DNA from: an uncultured Collinsella sp.
GTDB lineage: Bacteria; Actinomycetota; Coriobacteriia; Coriobacteriales; Coriobacteriaceae
NCBI GenBank assembly: GCA_949287065.1
Contig: CASEEV010000070.1
Location: 1 to 53,348, forward strand
Length of the DNA: 53,348 nt
Reading direction: 5' to 3'
Part shown: positions 1,624 to 37,694 of the stretch, one piece after another
Numbering within the stretch: position 1 is the stretch's first letter
How the letters are laid out: each line of letters begins with the position of its first letter
Notes under the pieces: generated by a model
The model's database searches: none
Seen by the model: the letters and a program-made list of their open reading frames with translations, nothing else
What the model was told of the DNA's origin: nothing
Made by a program: the position numbers and the translations under genes

Positions 1624-3621
1624 ATGGGTGAGAAGAAACAAGACGACAAGCACATGCAGAGCTTCAAGGAGCGGAGCGCCAAGGAGTTCGCAGGGCAGAC
1701 CAAGGGTCTCGAACCGATTTTCAACACCTTGCAGACGGCCCGGTACCGCTACGTGCTGCTGGTGGTTATCGTTGCGTCCCTCGCAGGGTTGCTGTGGTTC
1801 GGCTTCAAAGATGCCGGGTCCTACTACGGCTATACTGCCGGGTCTCTGTTCAGACCCGACCGTTACGCCGAGACCGCGGCGACCGAGTACTTTGGCGAAT
1901 GGCAGGGGCTGACGGCAGACGAGGTGAACCGCCAGGTTTCAAGCATGCGGCTGGCCAACCTGCCCGGCGCGCTGGGGTGCGGCGCGGTGCTCGCGGCCGC
2001 GGGCGTGTTCTCCTGGTGGGCGGGGCTGGGGTTCGCACTCGCTCGGACGGTGGTCAAAAGCGTGTTTGACCTGTCGGCCGATACCCGGTCGTTCTTCGTC
2101 CGGCGCTACCGCGCCGACCACCCCGCGGCGCCCGGGAACCCCAAGTTCAGCAACGTGATGCTCTACACCTTGCGCTACGTGTTCGATCCTGCCTGCGACA
2201 ACGGCGTCGCCGACACTCTGCTCGACGCCGAGATGGTGGGCTACATGCGCAAGGCGCTGGGCGACGTCAAGGTGTCGGGCGGTTACCTGCTTGCGAACGG
2301 GCTGTGGCTGAGCGGCAGCCCGGCGCGGCTGCGCCCTGCGCTGTCGTTTATCGGCCTGGATCCGATAACCGTTGCCCACGCTTCCCGGCACGCAGAGGAC
2401 GCCGGCGCGCCGCCCGCTGCCCAGGAGTCGGCAACCGCGCCTGCCGAGGACGCAGATTCCGCTCCGGCCGGTCCTCAGCCTGATGCCCCCGAGAAGGACG
2501 CTTCCGGTTCTGCTTCGGCTTCCGTACCTGCCAAGGGGGCGCCTGCGTTGTCGGCGGCTTCGGAGCCCGCTGCGCCGGCGGCTGCCGCTTCGCAGTCCGT
2601 TGCGCCAGCGGAGACGGCATCGGAGCCCGCTGCGCCGGTGGCGGCTGTGAGGCGGTTCTGCGCTCAATGCGGCGCAAAGCTCCCCGACGGCGCGCGGTTC
2701 TGCCCTCGGTGCGGCACGCCGCGCGATACGGGAAGCGCGCCGCGCTCGGCGGGCGGGCAGATTTCTGCGCCCGCAAAAGACGCAGGCGCCGCTCCGGTCA
2801 GCACGCCGAAGGACGGCTCTCTCAGCGCAGCGCCTCAGCCTCAGAACAACCCAGCCAGCGGTGCGGCGAGAAGCGCGGCGGCGCAGCCGGTCGCCGCAAG
2901 CACCGCTCCTGCCTCCCCGCGTCCGTCGCGCTCGCGCGCGCCCATTGTCGCGGCCGTCTGCGTGTGCGCCGCCGCCCTCGCGCTGGTGTTCGTGATCGTG
3001 GTGCTGCCGGCGCTCGGGCCCACGCAGACGCCAGATACCGCAGGCACCGTTGCCGCTGACGGCACAGATGTTTCTACCGAGGCACTTCCTAGAGGCGCCG
3101 CCGAGGATGGCGATGGTGCGGATGACGCCCCAGCGCAAGACGAGGGGCAAGCGGAAGAGGGCAGCGCTCGTCGGCAAGCGGAAGAGCCCGCGGATACCGA
3201 CGCCGCCGCAGAGCCCGCGGATGCCGGGTCCTCTGACCTGCTCGCCTTGAGCGACCCCGCTCAGATCGCCGCGAGCTTGGGGCCGGCGAGCGACGGCGCA
3301 ACCGGCACGTACGAGAACATTCCCGACACGCCAGCGACGCAGCTGTGGAAGACGTGCATGCCGCAGGGCCCCGTAGCGGGTCTTGAGTACGAGATCGCTC
3401 TTGACGGCAGCTACATGCGCATAGCGGCGCAGCGCAGCCAGAGCGGCGCAGACGACGTTATGAGGTACGTCCTGTCCGAACTCGGTGCGACGACCGACAT
3501 GTTCTTCCAAGACGGAGGCGGCTCGTGGCACATGGCCGACTGGCAGGGTTTCCGCATCTGCTCGCGGGCCGCGACCAGCGCCAGCGATTATTTCGAGCTC
3601 ATCATCATCCCCCTTGCGTAA
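1624..3621 (+). CDS. Zinc-ribbon multi-spanning membrane protein of unknown function
   Basis: The predicted protein has 665 residues. Two hydrophobic segments lie near residues 40-65 and 110-140, followed by a mixed helical domain and a long Ala/Pro/Ser linker. A zinc ribbon with two CxxC pairs (FCAQCGAKLP and FCPRCGTP) lies near residues 344-368, and another transmembrane helix near 438-467. An acidic Ala/Asp/Glu tract and a folded C-terminal part of about 110 residues complete it. The start is the ATG at 1624, preceded by AGAGGGGG; an upstream in-frame start at 1444 has no such site. It sits 51 bp before another zinc-ribbon gene. Zinc-ribbon plus TM plus outer-domain proteins are common in Coriobacteriia, but I do not recognise a specific function. 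Confidence 0.75.
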   Translation: MGEKKQDDKHMQSFKERSAKEFAGQTKGLEPIFNTLQTARYRYVLLVVIVASLAGLLWFGFKDAGSYYGYTAGSLFRPDRYAETAATEYFGEWQGLTADEVNRQVSSMRLANLPGALGCGAVLAAAGVFSWWAGLGFALARTVVKSVFDLSADTRSFFVRRYRADHPAAPGNPKFSNVMLYTLRYVFDPACDNGVADTLLDAEMVGYMRKALGDVKVSGGYLLANGLWLSGSPARLRPALSFIGLDPITVAHASRHAEDAGAPPAAQESATAPAEDADSAPAGPQPDAPEKDASGSASASVPAKGAPALSAASEPAAPAAAASQSVAPAETASEPAAPVAAVRRFCAQCGAKLPDGARFCPRCGTPRDTGSAPRSAGGQISAPAKDAGAAPVSTPKDGSLSAAPQPQNNPASGAARSAAAQPVAASTAPASPRPSRSRAPIVAAVCVCAAALALVFVIVVLPALGPTQTPDTAGTVAADGTDVSTEALPRGAAEDGDGADDAPAQDEGQAEEGSARRQAEEPADTDAAAEPADAGSSDLLALSDPAQIAASLGPASDGATGTYENIPDTPATQLWKTCMPQGPVAGLEYEIALDGSYMRIAAQRSQSGADDVMRYVLSELGATTDMFFQDGGGSWHMADWQGFRICSRAATSASDYFELIIIPLA

Positions 3622-3672
3622 GGGCACGCCCGGCGTAGCTCGCGTGCACTGAAGAAAAGAGGCGAGAAGCTT

Positions 3673-4566
3673 ATGTTCTGCCCGAACTGCGGTTCCAAGG
3701 CGCCCGACGGCGCAAAGTTCTGCGGCGTCTGCGGGACTCCGCTGCCTCATGCCCGCGTTGAGAGCGGTGCGCCCGTACCGCGCCCGACGGCGCAGGCGTC
3801 GGTTCCGCCCGCGTCCCAGTCCACGCCTCAGCCCGCGCCCGTCGCTGCCCCGGCCGCCGCTTCTTCGGGCGGCTCTGCGGCCCTGCGCGCAGTGGGCATC
3901 GTTGCCGTGGTGGCGCTTCTCGCCGTTGCAGGGGCGCTTTTCTTGGCTGCGACCGGCACGAACGTGCCTGTGGTGTCGTCGCTTCTCGGCGGCGGGGAGT
4001 TCCAAGGGACCCTTACCGTCTCGTCCGATGGCGTGTCGGGCATCAGCGGCTTTACGACCACGATCGACGGCGACCGCATCCTGGTAAGCAGCAACGGCTC
4101 GGACGAGGTCGAAGGCACGGTTGCCGACAAGTACCAGCGCGGCACCTCGACGGTCTACGAGATCGACGAGACCGACGGCGCGTCGATCTCGGGCACCGAC
4201 GGCTTTACCGAGGCCACGGCCAAGGTCATGGTGCCGCAGGGCATCGGCAAGGGCGAGCCGCGCGGCATGCTCGGGTACGTGGTCCGCGGCGGGGGCAACG
4301 GCGGCACCGGCATCGGCGACATCTACATGCTTGTCGGCGTGTACTTTGACTTCCATGCAGGCGGAACGGTCGATATCGGCGTGGCGGGCGCCATGGAGCG
4401 GTCAAGCTCTGCGCTCGACAAGGCCGACCCCACGCTCGACGCTTTTGACCCGTCGGATTCCGCGCGCACGCAGGCGGCGACGGGCACGTGGACCAAGCCC
4501 TACGATGGCCGCATCGAGATCGAGCTCGAAGGCGCCAGCGGCACGCTGTACCTAGACTACGAGTAG
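3673..4566 (+). CDS. Zinc-ribbon single-pass membrane protein of unknown function
   Basis: The protein has 297 residues. It starts directly with a zinc ribbon (MFCPNCGSKAPDGAKFCGVCGTPLP), followed by an Ala/Pro linker of about 40 residues and one transmembrane helix near residues 73-98. The roughly 200-residue C-terminal part is rich in Gly, Thr and Asp and should be beta-rich and outside the membrane. It is probably co-transcribed with the larger zinc-ribbon gene 51 bp upstream. The paired CxxC motifs are seen directly; the topology (ribbon inside, beta domain outside) is inferred. No enzyme motif is visible. Confidence 0.75.
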   Translation: MFCPNCGSKAPDGAKFCGVCGTPLPHARVESGAPVPRPTAQASVPPASQSTPQPAPVAAPAAASSGGSAALRAVGIVAVVALLAVAGALFLAATGTNVPVVSSLLGGGEFQGTLTVSSDGVSGISGFTTTIDGDRILVSSNGSDEVEGTVADKYQRGTSTVYEIDETDGASISGTDGFTEATAKVMVPQGIGKGEPRGMLGYVVRGGGNGGTGIGDIYMLVGVYFDFHAGGTVDIGVAGAMERSSSALDKADPTLDAFDPSDSARTQAATGTWTKPYDGRIEIELEGASGTLYLDYE

Positions 4567-33235: not shown

Positions 33236-33886
33236 ATGGCGCTTAACAGCTATATTGCCGCCGAGCGGCAGAAGCGCCTCGAGGCGCTTCTCGGCACGCC
33301 GACCTTCCTGGTCGTGGCCGGCGCGCTGCCGGGCCTGGCGGTTGCCAACAACCTCGAGCAGGGCTTTGCCATCGGCGCCGTCACCGCGGTCGCCATCATC
33401 GCCATGGCGCTGCTCGTGCCGGTTATCAACGGCTTCACCAACTGGATCACGCGCATTCCGGTCGCGCTTGTCGTGAGCGCCGCCGTGGTGGGCGTGTGCC
33501 AGGTGGCGGTGTACGTGGCCGACCCGGCCGTCTCCGAGGCACTCGGCATGTACCTGCCGCTCGTCGCCACCAACGCGCTCGTCATGACGTTCGTGGCCAA
33601 GAGCACCTTTGCCGTGGCGCCTGCCAAGAGCACGGTCGCCACGGCCGTGTTCGCGGCGGTGTGCGCGCTCGCCGCGCTCACGTTCGTGGGTCTCGCCAAC
33701 GGCATTCTGTCGGCGGGCGAGATCTTCGGCCTCACCGCCTACGAGATCGCCGAGACCCCCATCGCCGTCTTCGGCAAGCCCGCGGGCTCGCTTCTGCTGC
33801 TCGCGCTCGTGGCCGTGTTCACCCAGAGCCTCGAGGGCGGTCTGTTCAAGGCCCCTGAGGCCGCTTCCGACGGAGGTGAGGAGTAA
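33236..33886 (+). CDS. rnfE: Rnf complex subunit E
   Basis: This is a 216-residue integral membrane subunit with about six helices. RnfE and RnfA are homologous and form the membrane core with an inter-subunit Fe-S site. Its order between rnfG and rnfA is the usual one. The ATG follows the rnfG stop by one base, and the stop TAA shares a base with the rnfA start. Confidence 0.9.
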   Translation: MALNSYIAAERQKRLEALLGTPTFLVVAGALPGLAVANNLEQGFAIGAVTAVAIIAMALLVPVINGFTNWITRIPVALVVSAAVVGVCQVAVYVADPAVSEALGMYLPLVATNALVMTFVAKSTFAVAPAKSTVATAVFAAVCALAALTFVGLANGILSAGEIFGLTAYEIAETPIAVFGKPAGSLLLLALVAVFTQSLEGGLFKAPEAASDGGEE

Positions 33887-34476
33887 TGGAGTTCCTGAAC
33901 GCCCTCTTCACTGCCGCGTTCGACAACAACATCGTCTTCGTGCAGATGGTCGGCATGGTCTCGGTGATCGTGCTCGCGCTGCGCCCGCAGGACTCCGTGC
34001 GCTTCGGTCTCGCGCTCTGGGCTGCTTCGGCCGTGTCGGGCATCGTCGGCTGGCCGATCTACTACCTGCTGCTGCAGCCGTGGGGCCTCGATTACCTGGC
34101 GCCCATGGCCTACCTGCTGGTCTCGGCTACCTGCGTCTTTTTCGTGGGCGCCGTTGCCACGGCCCACAAGCCGGTCGAGGAGCGCCGCGGCGCCATGGCC
34201 ATGTGCACCATCGTGGCCCTCAACGCCTGCACGCTCGCCGTGCCGCTCTCCAACGCCGCTGCAGGCTGCGAGTTCCCGGTCGGCGTGGGCACCGCCGTCG
34301 GCGCGGGTCTCGGCGCGTTTATCGCCGTCGTGCTCTTTGCCGGCGTGCGCAACCGGATCAACGAGTCCCAGGTTCCCGCGGTCCTGCGCGGCCTGCCCAT
34401 CTCGCTTGTGACTGCTTCGATCATGTGCCTGGCGTTCTTCGGCGTGTCCGGAGCGCTCTCCGGGCTCTTCGTGTAA
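33886..34476 (+). CDS. rnfA: Rnf complex subunit A
   Basis: This is a 196-residue membrane subunit with about six helices, homologous to RnfE. The N-terminal NALFTAAFDNNIVFVQMVG resembles the NN-containing RnfA start. The ribosome site GGAGGTGAGG lies in the end of rnfE, so the two are coupled. In most operons rnfB follows next; here only a 69-residue peptide follows. Confidence 0.92.
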   Translation: MEFLNALFTAAFDNNIVFVQMVGMVSVIVLALRPQDSVRFGLALWAASAVSGIVGWPIYYLLLQPWGLDYLAPMAYLLVSATCVFFVGAVATAHKPVEERRGAMAMCTIVALNACTLAVPLSNAAAGCEFPVGVGTAVGAGLGAFIAVVLFAGVRNRINESQVPAVLRGLPISLVTASIMCLAFFGVSGALSGLFV

Positions 34477-34488
34477 GGAGGGGCGAGG

Positions 34489-34698
34489 ATGTTCTACGTT
34501 GTTGCGCCCGCTCTTGTGATGGCGCTTATCGCGCTGGTCTGCGCCCTGGTTGTCGTGGCCGCTGTGGCTATCGTCAATTTGTGGGGCACCCATCCGCTCG
34601 AGGCGTGGGCCGAGCGTCTGCGCGTCTCTGAGGCCGAGCGCGAGGCCGAGCGCGCCGTGCTCGACGCTCGCATCGAGGCCGAGGAGAACGGCAAGTAA
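34489..34698 (+). CDS. Small single-pass membrane protein in the rnfB position
   Basis: The protein has 69 residues. One long hydrophobic helix (about residues 3-33) is followed by WGTHPLEAWAERL and a charged helix rich in Glu, Arg and Ala. There is one Cys, in the membrane helix, and no Fe-S motif, so it cannot act as the RnfB ferredoxin-like subunit by itself. A strong site (AAGGAGGGGCGAGG) lies 12 bp after the rnfA stop, and the operon terminator follows it, so it belongs to the Rnf transcript. It could be a remnant of the RnfB anchor or a new accessory subunit. Confidence 0.75.
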   Translation: MFYVVAPALVMALIALVCALVVVAAVAIVNLWGTHPLEAWAERLRVSEAEREAERAVLDARIEAEENGK

Positions 34699-34758: not shown

Positions 34759-34842
34759 GTGCGTTGCTTCTGCATGTGCGGCCGGGCCATCGCTCCTGGG
34801 GCCATGGCAAACCGCCCGCGGGAGGAGCCCTGGCGCCAAAAC

Positions 34843-35231
34843 CGGCGCGATACGGGTCAGCTGCGCAAAATCACAGGCGGTGCTGTGGGCCTGCGCAATA
34901 GCGAGCGCGATACCGGTGTCGTGCGCAAATAGCCCTTCGATACGGGCGTCCTGCGCAAAAATGCCTTCGACACGGGCGACAAGCGCAAAAAACTCTTCGG
35001 TACGGGTGTCGTGCGCAAATTCTGAAGCGATACGCCGTCCTGTCGATGAACTTCTCCCGTATTGACCACCTTTTTGCTCAACCCACCCGTATCACGTTCG
35101 TTATTGCGCAGCCGTCCCCATATCGAGTTGATTTTTGCCCGGCAGTCCCGTATTGAGCCTGGTTTTGCACAGCGCCCCTGTATCGAGCGTGCTTTTGCGC
35201 AGAGCCCCCGTACCGAGATCGAATGAGCGCA
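34843..35231. repeat. Head-to-head array of degenerate 30-bp repeats
   Basis: TGCGCAAA-type motifs begin at 34862, 34892, 34922, 34952, 34982 and 35012, exactly 30 bp apart. CGATACGGG-type motifs recur with the same period from 34848. From about 35050 the same unit continues in the opposite orientation: TTTGCGCA-type motifs begin at 35073, 35103, 35134, 35164, 35194 and a weaker one near 35224, with CCGTAT-type motifs between. Copies diverge at the bases between the two motifs. The whole can fold as a large imperfect hairpin. It fills the 34759-35378 gap between the rnf terminator and ligA. Reading frames through it show a 10-residue period but have no ribosome site. Confidence 0.85.
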
Positions 35232-35324
35232 GGAAGCCTTCTTCGCCGACGGCAGTGCTTTCCACTCGTGCGGCGAGCTCGGTTTGGTGCGGTTCATGCG
35301 GCGCTTGCGTGGTACCCTTCTTGA

Positions 35325-37694
<2,370 letters not shown>

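Follow-up and report, generated by a model that had tools for sequence, protein, structure and literature searches.

Inverted arrays of 30-bp units in Collinsella and an array-flanked gene for a predicted nuclease-fold protein that varies with them

Among extragenic repeats of bacteria that have a cognate enzyme, the principal example, to our knowledge, is the pairing of repetitive extragenic palindromic (REP) sequences with REP-associated tyrosine transposases (RAYTs). In these systems short inverted repeats (REPs, REPINs) are dispersed through extragenic DNA, and a single-copy RAYT (TnpA-REP) gene stands beside its cognate repeats, an arrangement called the REPtron; separate repeat classes are each tied to their own gene, and repeat and enzyme co-evolve (PMC3116915, PMC8266576). 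Here we analyse an array of degenerate 30-bp repeats that lies between the rnf operon and ligA on contig CASEEV010000070.1 of an uncultured Collinsella sp. (GCA_949287065.1); the window is that whole stretch of DNA, 53,348 nt in length. The array belongs to a family of inverted arrays dispersed through the genome, two of which flank a gene that we name arrN. On balance we favour the view that the array is a dispersed, non-autonomous element serving ArrN, a cognate protein with a predicted nuclease fold, in a layout that resembles REP/RAYT with an unrelated enzyme. Judging from sequence comparison, a mobile or self-spreading DNA system that had not been described before probably uses the window array as one of its binding or landing sites.

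The genome that contains the window (G000; 97 contigs, 2.08 Mb) was compared with that of a sister species (G001; LigA 98% identical) and with two further genomes of the same genus (G002 and G003), all four being draft assemblies of many contigs. Each key comparison falls within a single contig and has matching sequence on either side, except for the pair L014/L155, which has one matching flank only as the G000 contig ends there. In G000 the pattern CGATACGGGNGTNNTGCGCAAA, allowing up to three mismatches, has 50 matches (22 forward and 28 reverse), against none for the reversed-pattern control. These group into 14 arrays with about 100 units in total, of which 13 run from forward to inverted units in steps of almost always exactly 30 bp, and all 14 are intergenic, the few overlaps involving weak calls of open reading frames (ORFs). 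A single gene, arrN, is flanked by two arrays in each of the four species (G000 L019, G001 L134, G002 L135 and G003 L073); in G000 and G001 its neighbours are rpsI/rplM-like genes on one side of the cassette and nagB-like genes on the other, and G002 and G003 have the cassette in a different neighbourhood that the two share. The likeness to REP/RAYT consists in dispersed extragenic repeats together with a single-copy gene bracketed by the same repeats, and it extends to the tie between each array class and its own gene.

In the sequences compared, array boxes and arrN vary together between species. G000, which carries arrN-A, has type-A arrays throughout and no type-B match. The sister species, with arrN-B, has 58 type-B matches (GGCGARAA-N5-TCGATCCTA; boxes GGCGAGAA..CGATCCTA), including both arrays that flank arrN, and keeps some type-A arrays beside them. 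G002 and G003, with arrN-C, carry type-C boxes YATACGA..TGGGCGA (YATACGA..TGGGCGAAAA), with 153 and 82 matches, respectively, compared with 7–8 in controls. ArrN-A and ArrN-B are 54% identical, LigA of the same two species being 98% identical, and the ArrN-C proteins of G002 and G003 share 73% identity, with LigA at 91%.

A second gene repeats this arrangement. An arrN-like paralog in G002 (L169: 6754–8055) is flanked on both sides by arrays of a further type, D (box TTYCTCTCGGCAGRTGCA; 30- and 52-bp steps), solo copies of which occur at two more G002 sites, L167 and L168; the innermost units are 91 bp apart in three type-D arrays. This suggests, at the level of sequence, that several independent nuclease-array pairs exist. 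Periodic DNA near six other paralogs (L110, L111, L114, L128, L132 and L151) was considered as candidate inverted arrays and rejected, as by eye it is coding sequence or simple repeats. These observations bear on a different account, in which another enzyme, such as an HUH/RAYT or insertion sequence (IS) transposase, moves the arrays and arrN is their passenger or target. RAYT systems classically give rise to dispersed inverted repeats in intergenic DNA (PMC3116915), and cleavage by ArrN is putative; however, arrays bracket the same gene in all four species, at two different genomic locations, the paralog shows the same pattern with its own array type, and box type shifts with arrN type, and we consider this account improbable, no search of the genome for HUH/RAYT or IS enzymes having been made.

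ArrN, of about 355 residues, comes from a large protein family of which genomes in the taxonomic family typically encode 3–8 members. Across 22 of these proteins D259, H277 and R289 do not vary and E270 hardly does, and all four residues are invariant in the four ArrN proteins. The top PDB match of the ArrN-family profile is 3r3p, a mobile-intron endonuclease (E = 0.0042), and 11 of the 22 members match DUF559 or REase_MTES_1575 weakly. On the basis of this residue conservation and these matches, the C-terminal half of ArrN is probably a Vsr/EDxHD-like PD-(D/E)XK domain, which an N-terminal domain precedes. PADLOC and NCBIfam searches gave no consistent match, ArrN matched no HUH profile, and no ArrN relatives were found in viral contigs. 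In arrN-A the third-position GC is low (0.60; L019:2183–3463) relative to neighbouring genes, as in recently acquired genes.

The predicted fold sets ArrN apart from RAYTs, which are HUH tyrosine transposases of the IS200/IS605 type, and brings it closer to I-Bth0305I (3r3p), an EDxHD (Vsr-like) homing endonuclease that is the top solved-structure match of the C-terminal domain. With such homing endonucleases the system shares a site-linked nuclease gene and allelic replacement around it, but arrN is outside any intron or intein, its putative sites are multi-unit arrays at many intergenic places, and homing by ArrN is hypothetical. The D..E..H..R signature is that of DUF559 and REase_MTES_1575; a link between these domains and dispersed arrays was not found published, as a search of the open-access literature for such arrays, or for DUF559 proteins with repeats, returned no paper. 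If our reading is correct, the DUF559-like proteins, a large and so far uncharacterised family, would gain a role.

Comparison of the two sister species indicates how arrays may be exchanged. The flanks of the arrN cassette are 94.8% identical on each side between G000 and G001, and the array-gene-array segment between them is not alignable. Three solo sites hold type-A arrays in G000 and type-B arrays in G001 (L012/L153, L014/L155 and L013/L156), within flanks that are 90–95% identical, and at the window site the G001 array is also type A, but its units are unrelated to those of G000. Other orthologous arrays of the same type are nearly identical (L017/L068, L021/L070 and one arm of L018/L067), with L011/L066, also of one type, showing intermediate similarity. 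This mostly bimodal distribution argues for replacement of whole arrays rather than slow drift, although there are boxes of intermediate sequence, for example CGATCCGG. Between L018 and L067, one arm is kept while the centre and the other arm are unrelated, the switch falling inside the centre, as if exchange had occurred at its core motif.

Arrays are also gained or lost at particular sites. The G000 arrays L009 and L016 correspond to empty sites in G001 (L170 and L171), and the G001 arrays L152 and L154 to empty sites in G000 (L172 and L173). L152 is a clean 535-bp insertion, with about three extra bases at that point in the empty site, and the same site holds a type-C array in G002 (L163) and none in G003; the three other empty sites have 64–88 bp of unrelated sequence where the array stands in the sister. 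The outer units of the arrays fade, and defined transposon-type ends were not seen. Duplicated copies of a tRNA-like gene adjoin the empty site L170 (G001:C33) that matches the L009 array.

Inverted arms bearing arrays of transposase sites are known from miniature inverted-repeat transposable elements (MITEs) and Tn7-type ends, and TnsA of Tn7 is likewise a PD-(D/E)XK protein. The present arrays resemble these in having inverted arms with several putative protein-binding sites and in their non-autonomous copies, but differ in that no DDE transposase was seen beside them, no target-site duplication was found at the one clean site that could be read and the outermost units decay.

In the scheme that we favour, the window array would be a solo copy, its inverted arms made up of 30-bp binding units and its centre of such a length that the two arms stay on one helical face, and ArrN, encoded by the single-copy gene of the array-arrN-array cassette, would be the trans-acting partner. 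ArrN would bind the boxes as double-stranded DNA, assemble across both arms, and nick or cut within the array or close to it; transposition or repair would then set arrays at new intergenic sites and replace old arrays by new alleles, such that ArrN specificity and array type shift in concert. From these sequences we infer three things: binding of the boxes by ArrN, cutting by ArrN, and cutting as the driver of spread and replacement. A more novel form of this scheme, which we put forward tentatively and think possible rather than probable, is a self-spreading chromosomal system, homing or gene-drive-like, whose Vsr-like nuclease would recognise the phased inverted arrays of 30-bp boxes and, on a change of its specificity, convert arrays throughout its genome to the new type, with several nuclease-array pairs, each with its own box code, coexisting in the bacterial family.

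Several observations weigh against the favoured scheme. Target-site duplications are not evident, the comparison of L172 with L152 being the only clean site that could be read. Near-identical ectopic copies are absent within any one genome (the best 60-bp window reaches 83%), and for that reason recent copying is not seen. The Pfam matches of ArrN (DUF559, MTES_1575) fall under the curated cut-off (PF18741, 12.3 bits against 38.2). Finally, the swaps between G000 and G001 could be allelic replacements by horizontal transfer from a third lineage. Should the scheme hold nonetheless, it would set a second solution, built on an unrelated nuclease fold, beside REP/RAYT and show that repeat-enzyme pairs arose more than once; with a box code that can be read and natural swaps of type between sisters, it would also open to direct test what each partner does for the other.

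Patterns of constraint within the arrays suggest what form of nucleic acid is recognised. Compared across units, the boxes are strongly conserved and the spacers are near random, agreement at variable positions being 0.33 for units of different loci and 0.39 for neighbouring units of one arm. The original prediction, made from the window's sequence, had proposed that the array can form one long imperfect hairpin and might be a source of structured RNA. A long hairpin does form on paper, the folding of the region exceeding that of shuffled sequences (z = -5.5 and -3.9), but it does so through the shared box consensus: units in register on opposite arms agree at variable positions no more than permuted pairings across loci (0.328 versus 0.338, p = 0.64), and we regard the hairpin as a by-product of the boxes. 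The arrays differ in this respect from REPs, which are single-strand hairpins of 20–40 nt, since here two arrays of 30-bp duplex boxes face each other across helically phased centres, with no complementarity between the arms except at the boxes. An Rfam search of the array found no described RNA family, and centre lengths range from 11 to 117 bp and track the helical repeat of duplex DNA; a structured RNA or a transcription-termination hairpin therefore strikes us as very improbable, despite the excess folding.

Measured between innermost boxes, the centres of type-A and type-B arrays are 11, 21–22, 31–33, 85, 97, 107 and 116–117 bp long. These lengths agree with steps of roughly 10.5 bp (over distinct classes, R = 0.905 at 10.5 bp), with a Monte Carlo p of 0.0004 that is post hoc and optimistic, as the classes were collapsed after inspection. 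Most G000 arrays have a 116–117-bp centre, often with a TCTACA-N13-TGTAGA core; the core (TCTACA-N13-TGTAGAGNAA) occurs in most long centres, in either orientation and with type-A as well as type-B arms, and is retained in L153 although the arms there are type B. Seven of the nine distinct genome sites that match the core with up to two mismatches are array centres. Together, the lack of complementarity between arms beyond the boxes, conservation confined to the boxes and the regular steps in centre length point to protein-bound duplex DNA rather than an RNA hairpin, and each unit appears to be under selection as duplex DNA, in keeping with the earlier suggestion of a phased protein array or recombination-type element.

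The same features are compatible with a platform useful to the host, in which ArrN would be a domesticated, perhaps catalytically idle DNA binder, the arrays would organise the nucleoid or insulate transcription units, and boxes would track the protein by selection for binding. Boxes maintained amid near-random spacers and helically phased centres imply that solo arrays have a function that lasts; the sister species has boxes of intermediate sequence, CGATCCGG among them, and the arrays lie between transcription units. Against this, several sites are occupied in one sister and empty in the other and the whole cassette has been swapped, unlike an essential host site, and the catalytic residues are invariant. 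We view such a platform as unlikely, though it deserves serious consideration, and retain a mobile element served by ArrN as the preferred explanation.

Two smaller features of the centres may be mentioned here. A CTTCTCG element recurs inside many type-A centres, and in type-C arrays (L159–L166, L073 and L135) a palindromic unit, GGGCGAGAA-N6-TCGTACGA-N6-TTCTCGCCC, stands at one end of the centre.

The window array itself lies after the rnf operon terminator and before ligA, and its anatomy (Table 1) is largely as first described. Six forward units, starting at 34840, 34870, 34900, 34930, 34960 and 34990, are spaced by exactly 30 bp, and five inverted units follow (35073, ~35103/4, 35134, 35164 and 35194), again at 30 bp with a single step of 31 bp. 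Each unit comprises two boxes, CGATACGGG and TGCGCAAAA, with variable stretches between them, and each arm carries a TGCGCAAA-type half unit at its outer end and a CGATACGG-type half unit at its inner end. Nine unit matches above 20 bits occur in the window, compared with none in each of 20 Markov simulations of it, and self-match of the array at lag 30 reaches z = 9.8. The constraint on period that the original prediction proposed is supported, almost always exact 30-bp steps recurring in arrays throughout the genome. The prediction's exclusion of a CRISPR stands, as the units are degenerate and their orientation inverts. It had also judged the array not obviously coding, and we agree. ORFs do cross it, among them one encoding 164 residues on the minus strand (34857–35351), 30 being a multiple of three, but the two arms give different peptides in one frame, there is no gene-like third-position GC pattern, and the boxes, unlike the spacers, are conserved at every codon position; a degenerate repeat-protein gene is thus the least credible explanation of those considered.

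The original prediction further held that absence of the array from related strains would leave simple tandem slippage as a sufficient origin. The rnf-ligA array is indeed absent from G002 and G003, but both genomes have the array family elsewhere, its boxes altered, so that simple slippage is insufficient. Local duplications of units have taken place recently, as in three identical tandem units (L155:3642–3813) and a 60-bp higher-order period (L134:2791–3022), which is what a functionless minisatellite arising by neutral slippage plus inversion would display. Such an origin is nevertheless hard to credit, marginally harder than an RNA hairpin, given that about 14 sites per genome share one architecture, with two boxes conserved between spacers that are near random, arms that are inverted nearly everywhere and a linked gene.

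Table 1. Positions of the window array, its neighbours and related array features. Coordinates without a locus are those of the window.
Feature	Location	Strand	Remark
Outer half unit, left arm (TGGCGCCAA, TGCGCAAA-type box)	34831..34839	+	Box opens nearly every array on the outside
Left arm of six 30-bp units with boxes CGATACGGG and TGCGCAAA	34840..35019	+	Position weight matrix scores 15-33 bits; steps 30,30,30,30,30
Inner half unit, left arm, box CGATACGC at 35028	35020..35035	+	
Short centre, 22 bp between innermost boxes, without TCTACA-N13-TGTAGA core	35036..35057	.	
Inner half unit, right arm, box CCGTATTG at 35058	35058..35072	-	
Right arm, five inverted units (one weak, one 31-bp step)	35073..35223	-	
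Outer half unit, right arm (TGAGCGCAG)	35224..35232	-	
Left neighbour, last rnf operon genes: RnfA-like 33886-34476, small ORF 34489-34698	33886..34698	+	Placement relative to array kept in G001
Right neighbour, ligA (NAD-dependent DNA ligase)	35379..37694	+	
L019 cassette (G000 contig 60)	Arrays 1825-2140 and 3640-4045; arrN 2183-3247	arrN -	
Type-D array regions, G002	L169:5937-8525; L167:3339-3635; L168:2904-3285		
Core-motif centres	L014, L011, L015, L020, L009, L016, L018; also L153, L066, L067		

The arrays have a narrow taxonomic range. Tandem GATAC boxes with a 30-bp period are abundant in only 4 of 67 genomes of the taxonomic family, those of the window's genus, and across these 67 genomes scattered GATAC-box matches outside the genus are about as frequent as control matches. 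When GTDB species genomes were scanned for the exact type-A unit, the sister metagenome-assembled genome (L036), labelled uncultured Coriobacteriaceae bacterium, was the only one with an array, the remaining 19 matches being single sites. A phage origin of the arrays was considered and rejected, as the two IMG/VR matches were single chance sites. Elsewhere in the window are two further short tandem repeats, at 2555–2636 and 343–418, with periods of 30 and 31 bp and sequences unrelated to the array.
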